NCBI GenBank assembly: GCA_015039465.1
Contig: MU130262.1
Coordinates: 43,219 to 107,218, forward strand
Source of the DNA: Phlegmacium glaucopus
Lineage: Eukaryota > Basidiomycota > Agaricomycetes > Agaricales > Cortinariaceae
Direction: 5' to 3'
DNA length: 64,000 bases
Position 1 is the stretch's first letter; every line of letters begins with the position of its first letter. The notes under the pieces were generated by a model, which saw nothing but the letters and a program-made list of their open reading frames with translations, had not been told where the DNA came from and did not search any database. Positions 3,223-28,075 of the stretch are shown here, one piece after another. The position numbers were made by a program, and so were the translations under genes.

Positions 3223-4620
3223 CATGCCTCGCAATAGGTACAGTATAGCTGCCTTCTGTACTTCAACTACTTATTTATGACGCTGACGATCATGTAGGAC
3301 CGTGAATCCTCCGCCATACTCAAGTACCTCAACTCGGTGGGAAACAGTCGGCGGCGATAACAGCGAGAGGGATAACTTGCTCCCCCGATCCTCCTCACCT
3401 CCTCGCCCCAACTATGGCTCAGACAACCTGCCCCAACACCCCAACCACGCCCCAGTTGTTGCACCACCCCAACCACGACTATTTAACCCGTTAAACATCC
3501 TTGTGTGAGTAATGATAATCTTGAACATCACAGCTTTTTTCTATCCCAGTATGGTAAACGTCCGAAGTGAATGGGCTGCCGAAGGGCACCGTTATCAAGC
3601 GATGCGCAACGCTTGGAATTCGGAACGCAAGGCAATGGAAGTGGATAGGGAGGCGTGGCAAAAAGAACGGGCAGATTATCGTTTAGAACACGAGGCACTG
3701 ATAGCGGAGAAAGAGCAGTGGAGAAAGGATCAGGTTGATCAGGAGAATCGGGATCGCGAGGCACTGGCAGCGGAGAAGGCACAATGGAAAAAAGATCGGG
3801 TTGATCAGGAGAATCGGGATCGCGAGGCGCTAGCAGCGGAGAAGGCACAATGGAGAAAAGATCGGATTGATTATGAGAATCGGGAACGCGAGGTACTGGC
3901 AGCAGAGAAGGCGGAATGGCGAAAACAGCGTACTGCTCATGAGGATCGAAAACGCCAGGAAGAGGAGGAAAAACGGGCGAGTATTGTTTGGCAAGATCTA
4001 CAGCCGTCCAGCAGATGTTTGCGATATGGGACCAGAGAGTATTCTGCGAAGCTGGCTCAAGTTCCTATCGGGTTGGATCCATTGAAAGAATGCTGGAAAA
4101 AAAGTATTGATATTCATGGTCAACAACTTTTTCCTTCTCGCTGTGACACTCAGGTAAAAATTTATTATCTATTTTCGATTTTGAATTATTCTGATTTTTT
4201 CCCTCTCGTTCCAGGGAATGTGCGGGACCGTTGTAGGCCACTGGGTCGTCAACTTCAATGAAGCTGTGTGTGTTACATGGTGGGCTGGGTATGACAACAA
4301 GGTATTCATCGATATACATGTTTTGACTTCACACACTAATGACTACAACAGGGCTGCGTCGAACGAGGAATCCACGTTCGTCTTCATCGCTGTTAAACAA
4401 TTCCTGCACAGATAACTCAATGACTTTTACAGCGCTACGAATCCATCTTGATGAACCTCCAAAACGGCGACGATTGGCACGAAATGTGTGCTACTACTCC
4501 GGGACATGTGCAAGGCAGGGATTTCGATGGACCAACAAGTTGTGCAAGTTGGGTGAGTTCTGACAAGTCCCCAATTTCAAAAGATTTTTTGCTTATTTGA
4601 TATTCGGATGCTTTTCAGAG
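3223..4620 (+). CDS. Coiled-coil protein with conserved C-terminal domain (copy 1)
   Basis: The likely start is the ATG at 3223 (MPRN). A 14-nt first exon joins over an intron (GTACAG...CATGTAG, ending at 3299) to the Pro-rich exon NPPPYSSTSTRWETVGGD. After FNPLNIL comes either a TGA stop at 3505 or a short intron (GTGAGT...CACAG), then FYPSMVNVRSEW and a long charged coiled coil containing four 66-bp repeats. The C-terminal part is cut by introns and includes GLDPLKECWKKSIDIHGQQL, GTVVGHWVVNFNEAVCVTWW and MCATTPGHVQGRDFDGP, a pattern I associate with a repeated agaricomycete family of unknown function. The splice between 4400 and 4437 is unresolved: the best donor and acceptor differ in phase. 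The end near 4620 is approximate. The gene may be functional or recently damaged. Confidence 0.55.
3695..3958 (+). repeat. Four tandem 66-bp repeats encoding a 22-residue heptad-like unit
   Basis: Four in-frame units of exactly 66 bp run from 3695 to 3958. Each encodes a unit like REALAAEKAQWKKDRVDQEN plus two residues. Units 2 and 3 are the most alike; unit 4 is the most diverged. The length is a multiple of three, so unit number can change without frameshift. The inverted segment of copy 2 is about one unit shorter. Confidence 0.9.
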
Positions 4621-5173
4621 AAGTGGCATTAATGCGATATGGTTAGTTGAGGACGGAAACTGCCTTTAGAGAAATCAAATTGTATAATTATGTAGTATAG
4701 CGGCTAGTACGCATCGATTGCAAACAACTTCACCTTAACCAGCCATTCAATCCACTCATGCGTCAAGAGAGGCTGGATCTTCAACCGCTCGAGGTCCTTC
4801 CTTGTGATATCCTTATTATTCGACGAGAGTAATTGTGTGTGCGTCAGGAATATCTTCATCAGCTTTTTATGTAAGATTCACCCAAGATTCACCCATCACA
4901 GAGTCTAACGCCTCGTCATGGTCCTTCTCAATCACGTCTTCCTCGTTGATTGGTAAAAACGGGAAGGTAACCAGTCTTGTACCCATTCAAACTAACAAAT
5001 TTCTTCCAGGTACCATACTACAGGCAATATCAAAAATGAGCATGAGGAGCATAAGCATAAGAATGAGAATGTACTAATGCATGCTATAGTAAATACCAGT
5101 ATTTACCGACATACCTACGTAGTACTATACTATCGACGGTCCGCTTATATAACTGGTGGTATAGTATTCGCTA

Positions 5174-7020
5174 TCATAGATGAGGAATTAGTTGTGTCCA
5201 TGTTGGGGTTTGGTATGCCTCGATAGGAAGCTCCCTGATGCTAATAAAGGCTTCGACGACCAAATATGCTTGGCAGAAGACATAGCCGATCGTATTAAGT
5301 ACGAGGAGAACCCAAATGACGCAAGAAATGCAAAGAAGTAGTGTATAGTACCCCACGATCGCAGCTTTCACGGCCTTGTTAGTTTGTATGGCAGCTGAGC
5401 GATCCACTGACTTGCTATAGGAGATGAGAACTTCAGAACTGGCAAGCAAAAGTATGATCGTCGGCCCTGCTGCAACTACCACGACAGATGAAATCCTCCA
5501 CAAAAGACATTCTGGCCAACTTGGAAAGAAGTCATTCCATGTTGACGCATGCAGGCCTCCATATGCACCGGTAAAAAATACGACTGCAAACCGGAAAGCA
5601 GGACCTGGAAACAGGGATGGCATCTCATGATTTCCAACACTTCTTTTCACCACAGTATGGGCTAAAAGAAATTTTCAGATTCATCAGCAGGCCAAGAACT
5701 ACTTTCATGGGTACCTGGTTTGCGGTCAGGCATCCGCCAAAGATAACTTAAATCTACAAATTGGTTAATAAGACTGGTTTCGAGCTACACATATCTACTT
5801 ACTAGGATTTTTTTTGATCGCTTGACTAGCTAACCTCCATCTCCAGATATCTTCTCGACAGAGGGCCACTGTACGGCTGTCGGACATTGCAAGCTGTTGA
5901 TATCCGAATTTCCGCTTTAACATATGCCATTGAGCCAGGAATAAGCTAACCTTTGGTGGCGGGAAGACGTCCTTGATCCCGAAGCAAGTCCCCTTAAGAG
6001 TCTCCCCTTTTGCTAATTCAACCGACTCCTCGTCTGGAGCATCAGCTCTCTCCTCCACATTTGGTAGGTTATCCTCGGAGTAGAAAAGGTAAGACGTTTC
6101 GAAAGGAACCTTTTGTTCATTATTCCAAAGCCGCTCGCTGGCAGTGCTTGTCATCCACATAAACGCGCACAACGGGGGCACCCAATCACCAGATATGGTA
6201 TGCGGATTTCTGACTTCCAAAGGCTTCCGGAACCAAAACCCGTAGATGGCGAGTGCACAAAGTGCATGTCCTACGGTATTGACTTCTAGTAAAGTGATGG
6301 GAAGATTGATAGCCACTCGACTGATGGATTGCAGTATAAACCATCCTGCTTGAATGCAGAGCAAGGTCTTTGCTAGCGAGTCAGCTTTACTTTTGTCGAT
6401 AATGGATTCTTCAGAAATACGAATCTCTTCAATATGGCCCTGATCCGCAAGGAATACAACTCCTTTAGCTGTCAAAGGAACTTGAAGCGGGGAAGGGAGG
6501 TCCTGAATGAATGACCCTTCAGTTTTGAAGGCAAAACCTCCCATTCCTGCGTAGAAACCGTGCACTATCGTCCAGCGCCCGTTCTTGGGACTTTGCGGCT
6601 GTAGAAATTATCTGAGTATATGTTCGGCCACTCAAGGACCGAGAAACATACCACGCTGCAACCGTCCTGCTTATCAATGATATCGTTGATTTCCTTGGCG
6701 AGTGTTCTTGCGGAAAGCCATTGCCTCCAAGCAATATATGCGACAATTTCTGGGGCCAATAGAGTGATCAACGCCCACTTGAGCTTACGTGCCGTCCGAC
6801 CTATGGGGCCCTCATTCTGAGGGGGAACGTTCGGGTGCGGCGCAGTCCACATGCAAAGGATCAATGTGAGCACGCAGCTGGTAAGAATGTTAAGTGTTCC
6901 TCGGGTTGGGGGTGGTGAGACCCAGTGCACCGTTTCCAAGTTGCTGCCATACCCAACTGAAGCGGAGAGAACACGCATAAGATCGATATTGCATACTAGC
7001 AAAATAATGAAGGTTAACAT
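5174..7020 (-). CDS. Fungal multi-pass membrane protein, WVSPPPTRGT/HGFYA family (copy 1)
   Basis: Four exons: 7020-6652, 6598-5803, 5753-5715 and 5661-5174. Lengths sum to 1692 nt (563 residues) and all phases close. The start ATG at 7020 heads a hydrophobic leader (MLTFIILLVCNIDL). Then come HWVSPPPTRGT, two membrane segments (NILTSCVLTLILCMW, WALITLLAPEIVAYIAW), the WRQWL and HGFYAGMGGFAF motifs, a loop of about 200 residues, and C-terminal membrane segments including LLWRISSVVVVAAGPTIILL. This set of motifs marks a large family of fungal integral membrane proteins with no known role. Antisense ORFs over it are shadows. A paralog with the same exon structure lies at 14112-15967. The spacer 7080-7850 upstream holds no gene I can support. 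Confidence 0.85.
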
Positions 7021-7998
7021 GATTGTGATTGAAGTGAAAGGGTTGGCTTTGATATGCGGTGATTTTATATATCCACCGCGTTCCTGAAAGGAAACCTTAT
7101 ACAGGCCTATGACAGGGCTATTTATGTTGAGGCTGTGATGACAAGTCTGCCAGCAACGTTCCGCCTCAAGCCGAACTACGATGTCGACCACGTCTGTACC
7201 ACGACGAATGCGGTCTTTCCGACTACTCCGAGTCTGAGCACGACATCCGACCTCCCTGAAGACTGGCACATTAAAACAGGGACGAGTTTACGAACCTGAG
7301 CCAGTAGACGCAGAGAAAACCCCACAATACAATCGGATCATGGATTCATTAAGGCTGTAGCGGGGCAGTGTAGTAAGACAAGCACAACCCAGTTTGAATC
7401 AAGTCTGCCAACCTGATATAAACTTGTCAAAGCACTGAAATTTAGACCTGCCCACGAGTTCTACCGTTCGCTTCTTCCGACTTTGTCCATTTACTTATCC
7501 CATCTCTTTCGTCTACCGCCACCATCGGAGCGTTCGACTCTATGTGCGTCCCTCCGTTGCCATCCATGTTTCCAACACTTCCATACCTTGATTTATGACA
7601 AAAATTCGGGTGAAGATGTTACCTTAGGCTGAGCTGCAGCTCACATCCTGAAAATATTGAAGCCCAAGTCATGACCCATTCAAGCCTACTCAAGAGCCTG
7701 TGATGGCTTGGGTGACCACGGCTCGACTCAGCAATGTATGATGGTTAACCGTTACACCCTGCTCACCTACCTGGAAGTTGATATAGGGAATCCATTTTTT
7801 TGTACAGATGGGTTGGAAATTTCGAATGGTGTTTCCACAATGGATCAGTTTTTGTTCAATCGGAGTTTGAATACAGTACACTCCTTCTCTCTGATGCCCT
7901 CGTTACTTAGAGTTCAAACGTTCAAATGTTCAAAGTTAAAAGTTTCACTTTTCAAGGAAGGCCTGCATCTCCTTTCCCACATTGACAATGACCGTATT

Positions 7999-8727: not shown

Positions 8728-9481
8728 GATGTCGTGCAAATACAGCAAGGTCATGTGCCGTGACTACTTGTGACACAGACCTTCAAATATATCAGGAAAT
8801 TAATTTTAAATACCTGGTTATCGCGGCTCACAAGTAAAATAGAGGAATCCGTTCAATAGGAACTCTTCAAATTATCACTCTTGACATGCCTGCAAATTTT
8901 CGTGCTTATCGGAAGGCTTGATCATGAGGAATTTCCCTCGGAATGTCAAACAACAGCAGCAACTGCCTAACTACCCACACGATGCCTTTGGTATATCCTC
9001 ATCGCTCCTGCTGTTCATTTAGGATCTTATGTAGCAGTTTTGGTGGGTTTTGAAAGATTTAAGATGTACAATCTCGTCGTCAGATGTTCTCCCATCCGAT
9101 AAATCTGATTCTGCTGGGGTGGATTTCCACCTTTTGTCTGGTTACTGGTAATGACCCTCTCGCAACTTGTAAGTTTCCTATATGTGCTTTAGAGGCTTTT
9201 TTCTTCCATCCCATAGCTGGAGGTGAGGTCGATGAGTGTCTTCAAAGAGATATTTAGTGGAGTCTTATTGTGGAAATTCCATCTTTATCTCTGGGACTAA
9301 AATAAAACTACAAAGGAATTTAGCTAACTAGGGCTATTTTCTACAATTGCTATTGACCCGATCAGTAATAACTCATTGATGAAGGTGTTTAAAGTGGCTT
9401 TCAGTCATATTGACTGCAAAATTGCCTTTTTAGAATGTGTCACACTGTGTGCACGTGACCTTGCTGTATTTGCACGACATC
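8728..9481. mobile_element. TA-flanked inverted-repeat element
   Basis: Inverted ends start GATGTCGTGCAAATACAGCA, followed by AGGTCA; the match is near perfect for about 27 bases. TA lies directly outside both ends (8726-8727, 9482-9483), as for Tc1/mariner-type insertions. The 754-bp interior has no convincing ORF. Its insertion separates copy 2 of the coiled-coil gene from its start codon region. Confidence 0.75.
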
Positions 9482-9883
9482 TACCTTACCTCGTATAGCT
9501 GCCTTCCGCTTAGTTATCATGCTGACGATCATGTAGGACCGTGAATCCTCCTCCATACTCAAGTACCTCAACTCTGTTGGGAACACCCGGCCGCGATAAC
9601 AGTGGGGGTCGGCAATGTCACATATAGCCGTGGCAATGTTTTGTCACATCATGTCACACAACCGGTCACAAAACCTGGTACAACATGTTTTCAATGAGTT
9701 CTGCACTGTTTCACAAGATTTTTTCACTGTATAAAGCATGATATGGTATAATTATAAACTGTACAACACTTTCAGATGCTCAGAGGTAGAAATAGTACCT
9801 AAAATATGGTTCAAAAATGAGAACAAGTAGAAATCTTCATCTAACTAGCATTATTTGATGACATAGTTTATAAACTATTTGCA

Positions 9884-10105
9884 TTATAGCAAGAGGATTT
9901 TACCTTCTGTTTTATCAAGCTCAAAGCCTAATTGTATACATGCTGAAATATACCCCTCCTGGATAATTTGAGCTACAGTACGAGGACTGATGTTTCCAAC
10001 TGTAGTTATTCCTGCAATACCTAAAACAGCCTTAATGACACCCATGATATTTTTAGCTGAGACACCAGCTTGAACAAGAATGTGGACAAGATTCCGAGTC
10101 TGTTC
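9884..10105 (-). CDS. C-terminal fragment of an element-encoded repeat-family protein
   Basis: Open on the minus strand from about 10105 to 9889: EQTRNLVHILVQAG, then IKAVLGIAGITTVGNISPRT and AQIIQEGYISACIQLGFELD. The run ends at a probable donor (GTAAAA) just after DKTEG, followed in frame by a stop at 9884. This looks like a repeated agaricomycete protein family of unknown function. There is no ATG of its own. Upstream of 10105 the minus strand is nonsense as written. The mirror-reversed block, read in its own sense, ends ...LLKKGV-Y and would lead straight into EQTRNLV. Downstream of 9884 no further exon is visible before the element ends. Confidence 0.6.
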   Translation of the reverse strand, partial: EQTRNLVHILVQAGVSAKNIMGVIKAVLGIAGITTVGNISPRTVAQIIQEGYISACIQLGFELDKTEGKILLL

Positions 10106-12008
10106 TCGGGTCGGACCCACCAAAATAATGTAGTATTCATAGTTTTGTTAAATTAAACTCCAAAATTTACAAACATCCTCCATATCTACAACGACTCACT
10201 GTCATTAGGGACGGTTTTCACGATTTAATTCTTTCGATTTTAACTTCGAAATATCTGAGACGTCATTCGGTGAATTTGTTGTTCGAGACCACTCTATTTT
10301 ACAAAGAATACATATCTTGAAATTAAGGAGAACTAATGAAAAAAATGTATTATTTAAAATCACTTCTATCGTCACATTAAAGGTATTTTCCTTCCAAATT
10401 TTTTATTCCTTTTTATAAAACTAGTTCTCTATAACAAGTCTAACTACTTTTTTACTATGAAACAATAACCTGACTTCGTGGTATAACTCAAGGACTATCA
10501 CAGATATTTGTTAAAGACAAAAACGACGGTTTAAGTCGGACTCTCGACGAAACATTCGTCGAGAGTAGGTGGTTAGACTGAAGGAAAGTGAGGATGGAGG
10601 TGGTATAACAAGAGAGTAGACAGGATCGATAGTTTATAACAAGTAAATCAGTATATCACAACCATTTGTTCGGATAAGATGGAGATTTAATATAATCGGA
10701 AGTTCTAAATCGAGACTAGAACTAGACTAGAACTAGACTAACCTGACCATAACGTCAAGAACTATAGATTTTTGTACATTCAAAATTAAAGGAATATCAT
10801 ATACTTTCGAGATTGACAAGTTTTGAAGTTAGATGTCAATGTTAAGTGGTTTAAAGGAGTGTAAAAATGGAAAACTGGTCAGTACGGGGGTTTTCCTCGA
10901 GTTCGGGTTTGTCGATTGGAACTTTTAGAGGTTTTCCGTTCTCTACGATTGGAAGATTTTTTAGGACGTCGAAATCGGAGTCGAAGACGAAGACTTTTCA
11001 AACTCTCACGTCATTAAGTTATAGTCGTCGTTGAACGTCTATACCTCCGAGTTTAATGAAGAGAACTTCAACTCGATCTTTTCAGAGTACTCGTCACAAA
11101 CAATGTTGAAGCTTGCCGAGTCTGCTCAGACCGGCATTTGTCAGCATATTTCAGCTAGCAGCAAGCCACTCGAGTTTTCTTATGGTTCTCATTTCAGAGT
11201 TCCGTCGCAGAATTCTCAAACTCTCTCAAACTCTCGCTCCATTGGTTCCAATTCTAGAGTTCTTAATCGATGGCAATGTAGGTCACATTGATGCCATAAA
11301 TATCATTTATTTTCCCTCAGCACGTATCTACTTTGTCCGCGTACAATCATCCATCCGTATACATATTTATTCACTTTGCTACTTCCTTTACTCCACTCGT
11401 ACACATTCTGCCTTCACTGTACCTCTTCCACCCTACGTACATCTACTTTGCTCGCGTACAAGCCACCTCTATCCTTTTTCTTTTCTTTCAAGCATTGTCA
11501 CAAGATTTAAGAGTCTCGAAGACCTCTTACGAGTTTTTATATAACTCGTCAATTCTAGACGTGAACTTCAACTTTTTCTAACAATGTTTCTAGAAATAGC
11601 GGTCAACGCTTTACTTACAACACGAGCCGTCGTACGGTCATTTCCGTTTCGACAAGAATTCCTTTGCCAACGACTCAACCACCTTATATTCGTCTTTTAT
11701 TACTTCCTCCGGTTCCTCGAGGTTTTCGTAAGACGAGAACTACGAGTTATACATCTACAAGATTTCAGTCTGTTACTTGTAAACGTCTTTCTCGAGAGTT
11801 CGTTAAGTCTTGTGATAAGTTTTCTCGAACGTATATGAACACTTTTCGACTTTAGTAGTGTTTCACGTAACTTTCCGAGATTCAGTCTCCATATGTTAGA
11901 TTTCGGTTTTACACGTTCCCGATGTCGTCAGTTCCTTTTACGACAAGTCTTTCGATCCAGAGTCCAAAATGACCTTTTTAGATGGGAGATAGAAAACTTC
12001 TTCCCCCA

Positions 12009-12011
<3 letters not shown>
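10106..12011. other. Mirror-reversed block: coding only when complemented but not reversed
   Basis: Take the base-by-base complement left to right, without reversing. An ATG appears at 10883-10885 and opens MPPKGAQAQTANLENLQKAR..., 95 codons of coiled-coil-like protein, with a likely donor or frame change near 11113. A spliced segment follows (KVSRQRLKSLREFESEVTKV). After an intron-like stretch, an open run of about 167 codons (11509 to 12010) includes ENAQKYIEQLRSALEVEKDC, KAVLKETVAELVEYKQKIMK and ARSQVLLEKSTLYLLKKGV. On the real plus and minus strands the same bases give only short, low-quality ORFs. The left 130 bases match 12041-12166 read backwards on the same strand. The block therefore has the base order of the element's minus-strand gene, string-reversed. 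Its biological or technical origin is undecided. Confidence 0.85.

Positions 12012-12039
<28 letters not shown>
12012..12039 (+). repeat. Run of 28 A at the right seam of the mirror block
   Basis: An uninterrupted A28 tract separates the end of the mirror-reversed block from the normally oriented right end of the element. It interrupts the protein read from the block right after GV-Y. Confidence 0.95.
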
Positions 12040-12316
12040 CACTTTTAGCTTTTTTAATTTAGCACTTTTGGCAGGGATTACTGTCACTCAGTAACATCTA
12101 TACCTCCTACAAACATGTAAAACCTCAAATTAAATTGTTTTGATACTTATGATGTAATAAAACCACCCAGGCTGGGCTGCAAGCCATTGTGGAAAGCACA
12201 ATTTCCGTGGGTCACTTATTTGAGGGTGACCGTGATGTCACTCTGTGATGTTACAGTACGTCACACTGCCTGAGATTGCCGACCCCCAATAACAGCGAGA
12301 GGGATAGCTTGCTCCC

Positions 12317-13540
12317 CCAACCTTGCCAAACAATATTCGCCCGTTTTTCCTCCTCTTCCTGGTGTTTACGATTCTCATCATTAGTACGCTGTTTTCGCCA
12401 TTCCTCCTTCTTTGTTACCAGTACCTCGCGTTCCAGATTCTCATAATCAATCCGATCTTTCCTCTATTGTGCCTTCGCCGCTGCCAGCGCCTCGCAATTG
12501 TGATTCTCCTGATCAACCCGATCTTTTCTCCACCGCTCTTTCTCCGCTATCAGTGCCTCGTGTTCTAAACGATAATTTCCTTGTTCTTTTTGCCACGCCT
12601 TCCTCCACTCCCACTGCATTGCGTTCCGAGTTCCAAGCGTTGCGCATCGCTTGGTAACGGTGCCCTTCGGCAGCCCATTCACTTCGGACGTTTACCATAT
12701 AGGGATAGAAAATAGCTGTGATGTTCAGGATTATCAGTACGCACACAAGGATGTTTAACGGGTTAAATGGTTGTGGTTGGGGTGGTGTAATAACTGGGAC
12801 GTGGTTGGGGTGTTGGGGCGGGTTGTCTGAGCCACAGTTAGGGTGAGGAGGTGAGGAGGATCTAAAGCCGTCCAGCGATATGGGACCAGAGAGTATTCTG
12901 CGAATCTGGCTCAAGTCCCTCTTGGGTTAGATCCCTTGAAAGAATGCTGGAATAAAAGTATTGATATTCATGGTCAACAACTTTTTCCTTCTCGTTGTGA
13001 CACTCAGGTAAACTTTCATTATCTATTTTCGATTTCGAAGTATCTTCATTTTTTTTGTCTCGTTCCAGGGAATGTGTGGGACTGTTGTAGGCCACTGGCT
13101 CGTCAGCTTCAATGAAGCTGTATGCGTTACATGGTGGGCTGGGTATGACAACAAGGTATTCATCGATATATATGCTTTGGCTTCTCCACACGCTAATGAC
13201 TACAACAGGGCTGCGTCGAACGAGGACTCCATGTTCGTTTTCATGGCTGTTAAACAATCCCGGTACAGATAACTATAATGACTTTCACAGCGCTACGAAT
13301 CCATCTTGATGAACCTCCAAAACGGCGACGATTGGCACGAAATGTGTGCTACTACTCCGGGACATGTGCAGGGCAGGGACTTCGATGGACCAACAAGTTG
13401 TGCAAGTTGGGTGAGTTTTGACAAGTTTCAAATGCTAAAGATTTTTTGCATCAACTTATTTGATACTCGGATGCTTTTTTCAGAGAAGCGGCATTAATGC
13501 GATATGGTTAGTCGAGGACGAAAACTGCCTTTAGAGAAAT
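12317..13540. pseudogene. Coiled-coil protein gene, copy 2, broken by inversion and insertions
   Basis: The homologue of the gene at 3223-4620. Its start exon is separated by the 8728-9481 element. The Pro-rich exon is split by the 2.7-kb element at 9603-12288. The segment 12317-12863 is inverted: its coiled coil and Pro-rich region read on the minus strand (FNPLNILVCVLIILNITAIF, then MVNVRSEWAAEGHRYQAMRN), while the C-terminal part (12863-13540) stays on the plus strand (ECWNKSIDIHG, then GTVVGHWLVSFNEAVCVTWW and MCATTPGHVQGRDFDGP). No single reading can give the full protein. It preserves an uninterrupted membrane helix where copy 1 has a TGA, which helps reconstruct the ancestor. Confidence 0.85.
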
Positions 13541-14111
13541 CAAATTTCATAGTTATTATGTAGTATAGCGGCTAGTACGCATCGATTGCAAAGACAAATA
13601 TTTCTGGGTTATCGACAACTTCAGTCCCTCCATCCTCACCTTCAACACCTTAACCAGCCATCCATCAAAAGAATCGTCAACGGCTTTAAAAGCCATAGCG
13701 ACACGCGTCATGCATCATGAGTGATAATAAATCCTTATTATTTATTCGACGAGAGTCATTGTAGTGTGCCTCCTTCAAACTTTTTATGTAAGATTCACTC
13801 GTCACGGACGGAAACTGCCTTTAGAGAAATCAAATTGTATAATTATGTAGTATAGCGGTTAGTACGCATCGATTGCAAAGAAATATTTCGGGATTAGCTA
13901 CAACTTCAGTCTCCTACCACCCGCACCTTAACCTTAACCAGTCATGCAGATCCACCATACTACAGGTAATATCAAATGAGCATGAGAAGCATAAGCATAA
14001 AGAATGAGAATTTAATGCATGCTATAGTAGATACCAGTATTTACCGACATACATACGTAGTACTATACTATCGACGGTCCGCTTATATAACTGGTGGTAT
14101 AGTATTCGCTA

Positions 14112-15967
14112 TCATAGATGAGGAATTAGTTGTGTCCATGTTGGGGTTTGGTATGCCTCGATAGGAAGCTCCCTGATGCTAATAAAGGCTTCGACGACCA
14201 AATATGCTCGGCAGAAGACATAGCCGATCGTAATAAATACACCCAGAACGAAAATAACGCAAGCAATGACACGAAGTAGTCCGGCCAAAACATCCATGGC
14301 TTTATTCGTTTGTATGGCAGCTGAGCGATCCACTGACTTGCTATAGGAGATGAGAACTTCAGAACTGTCAAACAAAAGTGGGATCGTCGCCCCTCCTGCA
14401 ACTACCACGACACATGAAATCCTCCACAAAAGACATTCTGGCCAACTTGGAAAGAAATCATTCCATTTCAACGCATGTAGGCCGCCATATGCACCGCTGA
14501 AAAGTGCAAATGCAAATTTGAAAGCAACTCTGATATCCGGGGCACCACCTGGATCCAGGGATGGCATATCATGATTTCCGACACTTCTTTTCACCACAAT
14601 ATGGGCTAAAAGAAATTATCAGATTCATCGGCAGGCCAAGAACTACTTTCATGGGTACCTGGTTTGCGGTCAGTGATCTGCCAAAAACCACTTAAATCTA
14701 CAAATTGGTTAATAAGACTGGTTTCGAGCTACACATATCCCCTACTTACTGGGATGTTTTTTGATCGCTTGACTAGCTAACCTCCATCTCCAGATATCTT
14801 CTCGACAGAGCGCCACTGTACGGCTGTCGGACGTTGCAAGCTGTTGATATCCGAATTTCCGCTTTAACATATGCCATTGAGCCAGGAATAGGCTAACCTT
14901 TGGTGGCGGGAAGACGTCCTTGATCACGAAGCAAGTCCCCTTGAGAGTCTCCCCTTTTGCTAATTCAACCGACTCCTCGTCTGGAGCATCGGCCCTCTCC
15001 TCCACATTTGGTAGGTTATCCTCGGAGTAGAAAAGGTAAGACATTTCGAAAGGAACCTTTTGTTCATTATTCCAAAGCCGCTCGCTGGCAGTGCTTGTCA
15101 TCCACATAAACGCGCACAAAGGGGGCGCCCAATCACTGGATATGGCATGCAGACTCCTGACTTCCAAAGGCTTCCGGAACCAAAACCCGTAGATGGCGAG
15201 TGCACAAAGTGCATGTCCTACGGTATTGACTTCTAGTAAGGTGACGGGAAGCTTGGTAGCCAGTCGAGAGATGCATTGCAGCACAAACCATCCTGCTTGA
15301 ATGCAGAGCAAGGCCTTTCTTAGCGAGTCAGCTTTACTTTTGTCGATAATGGATTCTTCAGAAATGCGAATCTCTTCAATATGGCCCATATTCGCAAGGA
15401 AGGAAACTCCTGCAGCTGTCAAAGGAACTTGAAGCGGGGAAGGGCGGCCCTGAATGAATGATTCTTCAATTTTGAAGGCAAAACCTCCCATTCCTGCGTA
15501 GAAACCGTGCACTATCGTCCAGCGCCTGTTCTGGGGACTTTGCGGCTGTCGAAATTACCTGAATATATGTTCGACCACTCAAAGATTGACGGACATACCA
15601 TGCCGTGACTGTCCTGCTTGTCAATGATATCGTTGATTTCCTTGGCGAGCGATTTTGCGGAAATCCATTGCCTCCAAGCAATATATGCGACAATTTCTGG
15701 GGCCAATAGAGCGATCAAAGTCCACATGAGCTTACGTGCCATCCGACTTATGGGGCTCTCGTCTTGAGGCGGAATGTTCATATGCATCGCAGTCCACATG
15801 CAAAGGATCAATGTGAGCACGCAGGTGGTAAGAATATTAAATGTTCCTCGAGTCGGGGGTGGTGAGACCCAGTGCACCGTTTCCAAGTTACTGCCGTGCC
15901 CAACTGGAGAGGAGAAAACATGCATAAGATCGATATTGCATGCTAGAACAATAATGAAGGTTAACAT
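14112..15967 (-). CDS. Fungal multi-pass membrane protein, WVSPPPTRGT/HGFYA family (copy 2)
   Basis: Exons 15967-15599, 15545-14750, 14697-14659 and 14605-14112. They total 1698 nt (565 residues) with all phases closed. The exon-intron structure is identical to the paralog at 5174-7020, and motifs are kept: HWVSPPPTRGT, WRQWI, HGFYAGMGGFAF and a C-terminal group of membrane segments. Differences cluster in the last exon, around two residues longer with a changed loop (DPGGAPDIRVAFKFAFALFS). An upstream in-frame ATG at 16012 would add 15 residues; I prefer 15967 because it aligns with the only ATG available in copy 1. It is intact although the neighbouring gene of the same duplicated block is destroyed, which suggests selection or a recent duplication. 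Confidence 0.85.
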
Positions 15968-16315
15968 GGTTGTGATTGAAGCGAAAGAGTTGGCAGTCAT
16001 TTTATATATCAACAGCTTTTCCTGTCTTGCGTTCGGGGTCTTGGCACTGACAGTATGCTCTCTCTTGTTCTTTCGTCCACCTTGTTCTCATTGCGGTTAT
16101 CCTTTTCAGGACAAGGGTGACCATCACTGGTTCAATATTGCATGCGTAGAAGAATACAAGAAGAATACGAAAAAAGATCTTAACGATGTACATCCCTGGG
16201 ATTTCAATGCTGATGAAAATGACACATTGCCTTATTGAGCTTACTTGGTCTTGTTTGTGTTTGTCTTATACCCTTGTCATCACCACCGCTACGAACAGAA
16301 AGCACGAATTGAAAA

Positions 16316-17920: not shown

Positions 17921-19657
17921 TTAATGGTCGACAGATTTTCCTTCAGGTTTTCGTGTCTTGAAAAGTCCTCGATGCCTCACGTTTATAAGTATCTCATAAA
18001 CATTTTCTAATGCTTGTCCTTGAGAGATTGAGGGCAAACGTCTCCTGCCTGGTTTCGAAAGCAAAGCGGATAGATGGTTAACCAAATAAATGGATCATAT
18101 TATCCGAAAGTGACATACCGATGATCGCCCAATTCCTCGTACTTGGTATCCTCAATGTCTCAGTCTCCACCTCCCAACCACAGTGTAAACTTAACGAGCC
18201 AAGCCAGATCCTATACATCGAATATGAACTGGAATTACTTCCATCCCCACCCAGATTCAAAGTACCAGCAAAGTCGGTATCTGGAACGTGATACAGTGGT
18301 GTTGAAGAGCGTTCAAATTTAGCATCGAAAGCCCATGAACAACATGGAATCGAGAAGTATCCAGAAGCGTTGTGCATTGTCGAAAGTACCGGAACCCACG
18401 GTGTCAACTCATCTGCATGGTTTCCGATGATGAAAACGCCAGGTTTGAAGTAATCGTCGGATAACTTGTCAGCGATGTTGTTGTCGGTAGTTGGATCGAG
18501 GGCGTGTACATGAAGTCGTGCTTGTGTAGGATCTGGATAATGACTCCAGGACATTCGTGCACGAAGATCGATTCCGTAGCCTTCGTATCCTTCTGCGGTC
18601 AGGATATGGGTCAACAGACCATTTCCACATCTAACAAAGAATGTGAGAATTGGACCATGCAAGGGCGGAAGACGCATACCCAAGATCCAGGAAGCCTCCA
18701 GGAGGGCGTGGCCATTCCTTCCAAGGTTCACTGAGATTCGATGAGAGATTGGTCGAAGTATCGGTATCTGATGAAAATGTATCTTTCCACAGAAGCATCA
18801 GATAAGTGGCGATCCCAATGTCCTGGAATTGCATCAAATACCATGAGATGCATGACAAACGGATGTATTTACCTCAAAAACATGCTTCAACGGATCTGTT
18901 ACTTCCTTCCAAGTATCGACCAACTGCTTGTGTCGTTCCCGCATGATGAGATACAGATCTTGATAGATTTCTCTAGGCACCAAACAATCATGGATGACCC
19001 GTTTCTTATAGTTCGTCATTGCCCCCCATCCATATCGATGCAAAGTTTCAAGCAGAGCCAGGCATGTCCGGTATAGTCTAGAATTCGGATCTGTTGGCGT
19101 ACCAGGCAGAGGTATGACTTCAATTCGCAACGTCGGTGGATCCGAGGCGAGGTAGCGAAATGCGAGGTGGGAAACGGCAGGGTGGTAATACGGCAAAGAG
19201 GATCCAGCTTCCACCAAGGGAGTCAAAACCAAAGTATCAGGCGGAGAGGTACGCTCCATGGTCAATCCATATAGAGTACAATACTGTTCCAAGGCTGCAT
19301 CACGTCCAGGTCTTCTGGGAAGTAACTTTCTATGGATGCACCGGATAGGTCGACGATCCCTCAGAGTCGGTAGGGAGGGTGAAAATTCGGAGGTGGTATC
19401 AACGATGACTTCTGACCGTAGAATCAGGGTTGAGTTGTATTCAGGATGGTGGATAAGTTGAGAGATGGCAATTTCAAACTAAGGAAGATCATTGAAGTAG
19501 ACGAAAATTTGACCGATCCCAGTGGAAAACGTACGATCTCAGGTGGAAACCCAGCCACGCACGATATCAGGGGTACCCAATTGACGTTTTTGTCTCCTGA
19601 CATTAACTCGTGGGCAGTGCATTGTACTGGATCAAACTTAGGGCGTTGGAAAGCCAT
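17921..19657 (-). CDS. TRM44: tRNA (uracil-2'-O)-methyltransferase Trm44
   Basis: Trm44 uses S-adenosylmethionine to methylate the 2'-OH of U44 in tRNA-Ser in the cytoplasm. Five exons: 19657-19535, 19478-18873, 18822-18680, 18630-18119 and 18048-17921. They total 1512 nt (503 residues) and every phase closes. Family landmarks are clear: HHPEYNSTLILRSEV near the N-terminus, KHVFEDIGIATYLMLLWKD, the SAM-binding PPGGFLDLGCGNGLLTHIL, YGIDLRARMSW, IGNHADELTPW, IPCCSWAFDAKF, LNLGGDGSNSSSYSMYRIWL, and the C-terminal RIPSTRNWAIIGRRR. The length is in the usual fungal range. A short gene starts divergently at 19751, leaving only about 90 bp between them, so a shared promoter is likely. Nothing suggests damage. 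Confidence 0.95.
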
Positions 19658-24745: not shown

Positions 24746-25499
24746 GGTAGATGAAGCTTTGAAGCCCGGGGGTTCACGACGATAGACGAAGCAATCCGTC
24801 GTTATCTGATTTGGTATGAAGAGATGATCTAATAATAAACTCGGCCCCTGGCAAGCGTTGTCGGACCGCTAGATTCATAAGTCACATAATCTTCCTCGTA
24901 TTCCCCCGTTGGACGCGTTAAATGGCTTTTGAAAGGTACAGATGCGGTGTCGAGAGTGACACCACTTAGATCTACATTTATTTAGAAGTACTGTAATACC
25001 GCACAAACAAGACTGCGTGGGGTGAGAAACTCATGCCTCACTCGGACTATGTCCTAGAACAGGGATGGAGCTTACCTAGCTTTCGAATCACGATTCCACA
25101 GGCAGGCGAAGGACGGGTCATTTGATGTATTATTTCTGTACTGTTTCCCAATTTTCCGATATTGCTGTATTTCACCCTTATAAACTGCGCCAAGTGTCAC
25201 TTCCTGCAAACATGTCAGACATGAGTTTAGAAATGGGATGGTTGAGATCATACCTTTCACATGATGCGAGGCTGTGAGGTCGTTGTATCGTATTAGAACA
25301 ACTTGGTGACAGAGACCAAGTAATGAATGGGAAAATGAAGACACGAGGAGATCGTCAGTATCCCGTGATCCCATACCTGGGAACCCTGGGTATTGAAATT
25401 AAAGCAGCTGACTTGATCCTTGTGAACACGTTCTTGAAACAAGTTACATTTGCGCGGGGATGGGTAAAAACCGGTAATTGAGGTTTGTGTTGCCGCTTG

Positions 25500-28075
25500 T
25501 TTATGAGATATCTACTACACGGCAGGAATCTATATCATCTTCCATTTATATCACTTTCTATTCGCAAGGGCTTTTTCCTTAATGAATAGAGAGGATATGA
25601 GACTAAATAGCGCCATCGTTGCGGAGAACCAGAATGTAGCATGGATAGCTTCTCGGTAAGAGCCCCGTACAGCAGCTTGAGTAGGTGGGTCGAGCTTTTC
25701 GATATAAGTCAAGGACTCTCGAACCTTTCGGATTATCTAATAATCATATGTTATCATATATCATGGACCGAGATCTTCACACGCACCTCTTCAACATTAG
25801 CACCAGAGAGCTTTCTGTGAAGCGCAGACCGCAGGGTACCTTGGACGAGTGTGCTTCCCACCGATAATCCAATGACAGAACCGAGAGAGCGGAAAAGGTA
25901 TGACACTGCGTGATTTCAATCAGATCGGACATCGGGATGACATGAGAGGAAAAAGAGACTACCAGCGGTTGCAATGGCTTGATCCTCTTGGCCTGCGTTT
26001 GCGATAAGAGATATAAGACTACTTGTGACCCCACTCGCTAAAATGCAGTGAGGAACCCATTAAGAAGCGAAAGTACATGGTGTGCTCACAATTGCCTAAG
26101 CTAGATAACACAATGCCTATGGGAAGAACAAATTGTTATGCTATCAAGTTTAAGAGAGTAAATACTTGCCTGTTACCATACCAATGGTCGACGAGATGAT
26201 GATACCTGTAGACAGGTTCACAATGACGGTACCCAGAAGTAGCGACATATAGGAGATGACAGTCAACTGGTAATATTTTCCAGTCGCTTGCATGATCAAA
26301 CCACTACCAAGAGAACCGAATAAACCAGTGAAAACGCCAATCAATAGCCATAGGCCAGCCTGAGAAGCGGTTTGTCCTAGTACCGCTTGTAGATAGAGGG
26401 GAAGATAGAAGAGTAAGGTGAAACCTGAGGCTATCCCGAAGAAATTGACCAAATAGCTGGCGATCAAGGTTCTATTTACGATAATCCGTTTGGGTGCGAA
26501 AGGTTCGCTGGCGAATTTCATCTCAATAGAGGCGAAAGCTATGAAACAGATTGGTAAAGCAGTAAGCGAATAAATGGTGAGACGATCGTTCCATGAAACG
26601 TTTCCACCTCTGTCCAAAGCGAACAAGAGGAAGAACACAGTTAAAATGAGAGATACGGCTCCAGCCCAATCCACACGCTTGAGCTTGGCCTTAAGATCTG
26701 AGGCTTCAACTTTTGGAAGATGTAATGCTAGAGTAACCGAAACTATCGCAGCGACCGTAACGGGTACCTGCAAGAGAAAGGCCCTAGGAAAGTGTAAGGA
26801 CAGTGCGATATGTAGGCTGTTCAATGACGAACCAGCGCCAACCAATAGTATCAGCAAGGAAGCCACCTAAAGAAGCTCCAACCGTACTCCCGGTGGCGAA
26901 GACGATGTTGAGGACACCTATTTATCCATTGTCAATCTGCGTGTTTATAATTCTAGAGGAAGTTTCGAACCTTGCCATGTGCCCCTGCTTCGCAGTGGGA
27001 CAACATCTGACACGATGATACTGACAATCCTGTGAAATAGAGGCATGATATAAGTTCAGAAGTAAGATGGCATGAAGTGAAGTTCACGTTTGCATGCCGC
27101 CGCCTCCAATACCAGATAAGGCCCTACTAGCGACTAGTTCCGCCATGTTTCGAGAAAGACCGCAGAGCAGGCAGCCCACGGCAAATACCGTATATGCAAA
27201 AAGCAAACAGGTTTTGCGACCAAAGATATCACTTAGTTTTCCGTAGAGCGGTCTGCGTGAATGCCTTGAGCTTTCCTGATTAATTAGAGGATTGTAAAAG
27301 ACTTACTGAATACTGGTAGTTGTTAATAAGTACGAGGTTGCAATCCAACTGGTATTTTGGAGTTCATTTAACTCGCTTCCAATAGCAGCATATGCTGTCA
27401 GGAAACAGTTTTGGTTTTAACTTCAACATCGCCTTTTGAAGAGCAGATTACACACAAGCCACGATAATCGTTTGGTCCATTGCACATAAGAATATCCCGA
27501 TCGCCATTGGTATCACCTTTTCCAGAGCAATAATGTGAGAAGTAGTACATATCCACAAAAATTGCCCAATCTCACCAGAGCCAAAAGTGAATTCTGGGGA
27601 GCCACGACAGTCTGCTGCTCAGCGTCCGTGACTCCATTAACTGCAACTTGCTCAGCCTCATTTGCGGTTGCCAAGTAATCTGTTTGACCGCCATGCTCTT
27701 CTCCGTTCTGAAGAAGAGGGGAACGCTCGGCTGCCATCTAGCAACGAGACCTTGCTGTAGAATGTGGAAAATTGAGGTTATTGGTGGGAATTTCAAAAAA
27801 AATTCCAAAGTTCGTCCCTGACTGCGACATCACAAAAAATATTATGTAATGAAAGTAAGCTTACTGAAACGCAGGCTGTCATTTTCGCCGAGGGCCGTTC
27901 CAAATCGCAATGTCTTGCTGCTGCTGTGGGACGTTTTAGAGCGAATTTTTGCGCCTTTAAATCATCCCGGTGGATTAAAAAAACAACATTCGATAGATAT
28001 TTGATTTTTTTGAAGACTAAGAAGAGTAAAAGAAGAGTCAACCTCAAGTGGTAGTCATGTTAACGAAAGTAACAC
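25500..28075. repeat. Inverted duplication containing the MFS transporter, copy 1
   Basis: This block is repeated in the opposite orientation at about 40185-42660. Similarity includes the complete MFS gene, its 5' flank (the CGTTTTAGAGCG...AATTTTTGCGCC region) and part of the 3' flank. The two copies lie about 12 kb apart. Confidence 0.85.
25551..27737 (-). CDS. MFS transporter, DHA2/Vba-like, intact copy
   Basis: Eleven exons: 27737-27576, 27516-27456, 27394-27307, 27252-27088, 27029-26971, 26917-26833, 26783-26170, 26116-26090, 26037-25963, 25905-25787 and 25736-25551. They total 1641 nt (546 residues) with every phase closed. Landmarks of 14-helix drug/H+ antiporters and vacuolar basic amino acid transporters: LCAMDQTIIVA in helix 1, SWIATSYLLT, PLYGKLSDIFGRK (motif A), ASRALSGIGGGG (motif B), VSDVVPLRSRGTWQG and LGGFLADTIGWRW. 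The long exon 7 carries the central helices. The donor after exon 7 is GC (ACAG|GCAAGT), matching the consensus for GC-AG introns. The N-terminus (MAAERSPLLQNGEEHG) has a dileucine-like sorting motif seen in vacuolar members. Substrate not inferable. Confidence 0.92.

Follow-up and report, generated by a model that had tools for sequence, protein, structure and literature searches.

The window, a stretch of 64,000 nucleotides from the assembly of the agaric Phlegmacium (Cortinarius) glaucopus (60.5 Mb, 259 contigs), contains a TIR DNA transposon with TGGGGGTCGGCAAT at both of its ends, in inverted orientation, and with a target-site duplication on either side (Table 1). Similar to TIR DNA transposons with 7-bp target-site duplications, the element has inverted ends, a duplication of 7 bp, many copies and internally deleted copies. 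The copy in the window is itself internally deleted: between 9853 and 9858 it is short of 2,093 bp, the distance by which the two flanking matches are separated in contig C148. The missing segment of approximately 2.1 kb is present in the intact copy L023, where it holds most of the 603-codon frame of that copy.

The 316-aa protein used as reference is encoded in L023 at 4994-5941 on the minus strand, and its best relatives are hypothetical proteins of Phlegmacium glaucopus. Because neither the 602-aa nor the 316-aa protein of L023 matches a Pfam family above the cut-off, no superfamily was assigned to the transposon. As a transposon copy of ordinary type, the DNA is biologically nothing new.

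Table 1. Features of the transposon copy and of the gap inside it (positions in the window)
Feature	Position	Strand	Basis
Left target-site duplication, ATAACAG	9596..9602	.	Similarity to 3270-3363 likewise ends at 9602
TIR DNA transposon copy, internally deleted; the gap fell inside it	9603..12288	-	Inverted ends TGGGGGTCGGCAAT; copies elsewhere
End of first exon of the element's gene, correctly written (EQTRNLVHILVQAG...)	9858..10105	-	Left contig end at 10105
Gap fill (very probable), string-reversed, uncomplemented	10106..12014	.	Match of the reversed string to intact copies; junction letters; composition test
Nested 397-bp insertion in the reversed fill	11100..11496	.	No counterpart in L021 and L023
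25-base gap placeholder (best reading), reads A	12015..12039	.	28-A run at 12012-12039; one-stranded 25-A runs
Right contig start, equal to 10106-10244 backwards	12040..12178	.	136 bp at 97.8%, 139 bp at 97.1%
Right target-site duplication, ATAACAG	12289..12295	.	

Reading direction of the block and the adjoining gap

The first-pass annotation had described positions 10106-12011 as a block which codes only when complemented without reversal, that is, as the element's own gene with the base order reversed and the bases uncomplemented. Two open segments are present in the block when it is read in this way. The first segment, of 97 codons, contains the ATG at 10883 (MPPKGAQAQTANLENL...), for which 95 open codons had been claimed; the second, previously given as about 167 open codons at 11509-12010, was found to comprise 171 codons at approximately 11497-12009 and ends in ...YLLKKGV. 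Two separate open stretches are seen because the nested insertion, which has AACACTG on either side when the block is reversed, interrupts the gene inside the block. From 10105 the true minus strand reads EQTRNLVHILVQAG, into which the protein had been expected to continue. The observation was confirmed, but the right boundary of the block required correction, since the inserted unit is 10106-12039, with the A run included.

The string-reversed block contains the coiled-coil gene of the intact copies and matches the 316-aa protein of L023 with 89.9% identity over 188 aa (E 1.7e-110) and, in a second alignment, with 88.9% over 72 aa (E 1e-33), whereas the deposited block, searched on both strands, gave a single match with E 6.6. 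In the normal flank (9601-10105), residues 244-317 of this protein are represented with 93% identity. The statement that neither true strand offers anything comparable proved slightly too strong, as the plus strand of the block, as deposited, contains an open segment of 144 codons; this segment does not match the protein of the element.

A homology-free test of the block was based on an order-5 Markov model, fitted to the window outside the block and scored on held-out parts, in which negative values are mirror-like. The block scored -18.7, while all 32 segments of equal length elsewhere in the window scored above +11.3 (mean 43.6, sd 18.5); the test is weaker in 500-bp windows, 9.5% of the 612 located outside the block also being below zero. 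Chance reading frames are ruled out by the best match to the protein of the intact copy together with this composition test.

A search of the assembly with positions 9000-10105 gave 47 matches, and 17 regions around some of these were compared with the block. In these regions, 34 stretches matching the reversed block string were found, versus four matching the deposited string (in L028, L036 and L037), each of which lies beside an N run. Intact copies of the element, the lack of which the first-pass annotation had named as evidence against its reading, are present and match the reversed string at 95-99% identity: L021 (99.0% over 515 bp without gaps, 95.7% over 675 bp), L023 (98.6% over 515 bp, 95.1% over 1009 bp) and L026 (96.9% over 484 bp, 96.0% over 1003 bp). 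An ordinary inversion was rejected, because blastn searches both strands and an inverted copy would match as deposited; no such match was found at the intact copies. Judged from these comparisons, the block can be regarded with certainty as mirror sequence.

The block is adjoined by a run of 28 A at 12012-12039. A comparison with L021, which reads AAATATACCC there, assigns three of these bases (12012-12014) to the fill, and the run is best read as three fill bases and a gap placeholder of 25 bases. The assembly has 157 runs of exactly 25 A on the plus strand and one on the minus strand; for exactly 26 A the counts are 72 and one, and for exactly 22 A they are five and three. The longer gaps of the assembly read N. 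Since genuine poly(A) should show no such strand bias where the orientation of the scaffolds is arbitrary, nearly all runs of 25 and 26 A are taken to be gap placeholders. A real poly(A) tail was considered for the run in the window and is ruled out by the same strand ratio of the 25-A runs.

In a comparison of the string-reversed window with the window (E up to 1e-3), the only matching pair, besides the A run, is 10106-10244 and 12040-12178, which represents an unrecognised overlap of the fill and the right contig. In L023 the left flank, the reversed fill (minus the nested insertion) and the right flank are contiguous, with four bases between the left flank and the fill, and the stretch corresponding to the 139-bp mirror overlap occurs a single time. 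Given this single occurrence and the contiguity, the fill would continue the left contig, would have entered the right contig and would have been reversed in place.

Recurrence of mirrored sequence beside further gaps

Comparison of the deposited sequence 10106-12039 with the assembly gave 14 matches, namely, the window and 13 matches at 11 other sites. At all 11 sites an N run or, in the case of C144, a 25-A run is located 0-1087 bp from the match, and at eight of them the distance is 33 bp or less; distances beyond approximately 1.5 kb could not be counted, because the loci extend about that far past the match. Among the 19 control loci (L002-L020), taken from normal matches to 9000-10105 and having a comparable flank length, an N or 25-A run was found at one. 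Three of the 11 sites (C167, C105 and C216) match via the element itself, and eight match only via the nested 397-bp insertion, with 75-90% identity and in some cases over 42-89 bp. The deposited direction of the nested insertion is the mirrored one, because reversed matches to it were found in L022, L027 and L031, loci without an N run.

The arrangement of the fill relative to the contig ends can be followed at two loci (b, block position). In L037 the fill runs from b1814 back to b129 and lies between a normal contig end (b1-129) and, after it, 248 N; in L036 a run of 675 N is followed by b62-680 and then by normal contig from b66 down to b1. In L036 and L037 alike, the fill is an extension of a contig that was reversed where it stood, next to N. 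The left side of the N run at 5848-6522 in L036 (G000:C105:899000-907000) is strongly mirror-like as well, with a score of -107 over 950 bp, and contains in the reversed reading a 244-codon frame that looks, on visual comparison, like the second protein of the element in L023. Reversed extensions thus seem to be present on either side of this gap.

A mirror-blind sample was composed of the first 15 listed 25-A runs with approximately 1 kb on each side, of which sides of 950 bp were scored. A side below -10 was found at seven of these sites (L052, L053, L060, L062, L063, L064 and L065), compared with none of 61 held-out segments of the window; a further control consisted of 54 segments from L002-L019, loci that partly overlap the training set, and contained a single segment below zero, at -45.7. 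At the other eight sampled sites and at the 25-A runs in L023 and L028 no side scored below -10, and not every gap is therefore affected.

Of 13 negative-scoring sides examined further, ten have a longer maximum open segment when reversed and three (L063, L052 and L043) when read as deposited. Four of the 13 sides were covered by a Pfam scan, in which only L053 exceeded the cut-off: the sequence to the right of its 25-A run (991-1015), read backwards, encodes 228 aa of ankyrin repeats (E 6.8e-48). When this side is read as deposited (226 aa), none of the 7,992 scored candidates qualifies as a relative at E 0.001. No Pfam family above the cut-off was detected for the reversed pieces of L051, L036 and L060 or for 166 aa of the block.

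Overlaps across the 25-A runs were searched for at the 15 sampled sites and in the window, L023, L028 and L051. The mirror overlap of the window and a direct overlap of 34 bp at L055 were found, and L059 and L066 gave short matches that do not adjoin the gap; no overlap was detected at the remaining sites of this set.

The first-pass annotation had allowed for a real and unprecedented structure, for which no support was found. Copying of DNA in parallel orientation by a biological process, resulting in a true mirror-image insertion, would account for the mirror sequence, which is itself certain, yet its probability is vanishingly small: the mirrored sites detected are located at gaps and placeholders of 25 A, and they include an ankyrin-repeat gene besides transposons. 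DNA strands are antiparallel, and we know of no polymerase or recombination route that yields a parallel mirror copy.

Origin of the fill and consequences for the assembly

Positions 10106-12039 almost certainly represent a gap in the scaffold, filled after the contigs had been assembled and with the fill written reversed and uncomplemented, which would make the block an artefact and not a product of biology. An assembly or data-handling error had been named as the most likely cause in the first-pass annotation, and it is supported by the gap scar, comprising the 28-A run and the mirror overlap, and by the mirrored sequence at other gaps. It is highly improbable that the reversal arose in the analysed copy of the assembly and is absent from the deposited record; placeholders reading A in place of N could stem from a storage format, but the reversal tracks contig ends and N runs site by site, to which a storage fault would be blind, and the long N runs are intact.

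The reversed gap fill can be explained by the following series of steps. The left contig, ending at 10105, would have been extended across the transposon and beyond the start of the right contig (12040) by 139 bp; the overlap of this extension with the right contig would have gone unrecognised, and a 25-base gap placeholder would have been left; the extension would then have been entered in the scaffold reversed and uncomplemented, i.e., as its reverse complement complemented without reversal. The reversal was most likely made by gap-filling software, possibly by PBJelly or by a script around it, through a programming slip such as complementing without reversing or reversing without complementing, and the N of the placeholder would have been turned into A.

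PBJelly would presumably set an overfilled gap back to 25 N. According to the paper on this program, gaps are stretches of 25 or more N, reads extend the contig flanks, and gaps may be overfilled by extensions without an identifiable overlap (PMC3504050). The locus is similar to such an overfilled gap in the extended flank, the extension longer than the gap, the unrecognised overlap and the 25-base gap unit; unlike the overfilled gap as described there, the extension in the window is reversed without complement (PMC3504050). JGI hybrid assemblies, described in a paper with Cortinarius glaucopus among its genomes, were obtained with ALLPATHS-LG and patched with PBJelly (PMC7550596), and the assembly of Phlegmacium glaucopus may be one of these hybrids. 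Another mushroom was also assembled with PBJelly (PMC6211417).

An artefact of the same kind may, with a rather low probability, have come from a gap filler or an in-house patching script other than PBJelly. This would agree with the cleanness of the fill, whose gapless 515-bp match to L021 is better than expected of uncorrected long reads, but the 25-base unit and the layout of extension and overfill fit PBJelly (PMC3504050), and PBJelly is the program named for the hybrids in the paper that names Cortinarius glaucopus (PMC7550596). The accuracy of gap fillers is treated in PMC8848313; in the titles and abstract openings of the literature searched, no description of a reversed, uncomplemented fill error was found.

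The chances appear evenly balanced that reversed, uncomplemented gap fills form a systematic and perhaps undescribed class of error, in this assembly and in public assemblies from the same pipeline. In that case, reversed fills would be present at a considerable proportion of the 25-base gaps, for which the runs of 25-26 A give a minimum of 157 + 72 in this assembly, and of the partly filled N gaps, and false open frames and false orphan sequence would be produced. Mirrored stretches pass for unique or orphan sequence because normal homology searches miss them; they also disrupt genes and repeats adjoining gaps, which is of importance for users of genome data. A simple screen could consist of a comparison of the string-reversed assembly with itself or of a composition model sensitive to mirroring.

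Other features of the window

Repeats in the window are represented by a direct duplication of approximately 2 kb with 90% identity and related ORFs (5012-7047 and 13954-15994), around which more matching pieces are located, some of them inverted (3387-3882 versus 12862-12369), and by a pair of inverted repeats of approximately 2.5 kb with 88.6% identity (25474-27957 and 42675-40249). In a protein search, 10 relatives with uninformative names were found for 14742-15512. A 66-bp tandem repeat is present at 3691-3959 within a frame of 249 codons, and its two-unit version is located at 12436-12560. At 18078-19292, two adjacent ORFs on the minus strand show matches to complementary portions of PF07757, a methyltransferase family, and, accordingly, probably belong to a single gene split by an intron.
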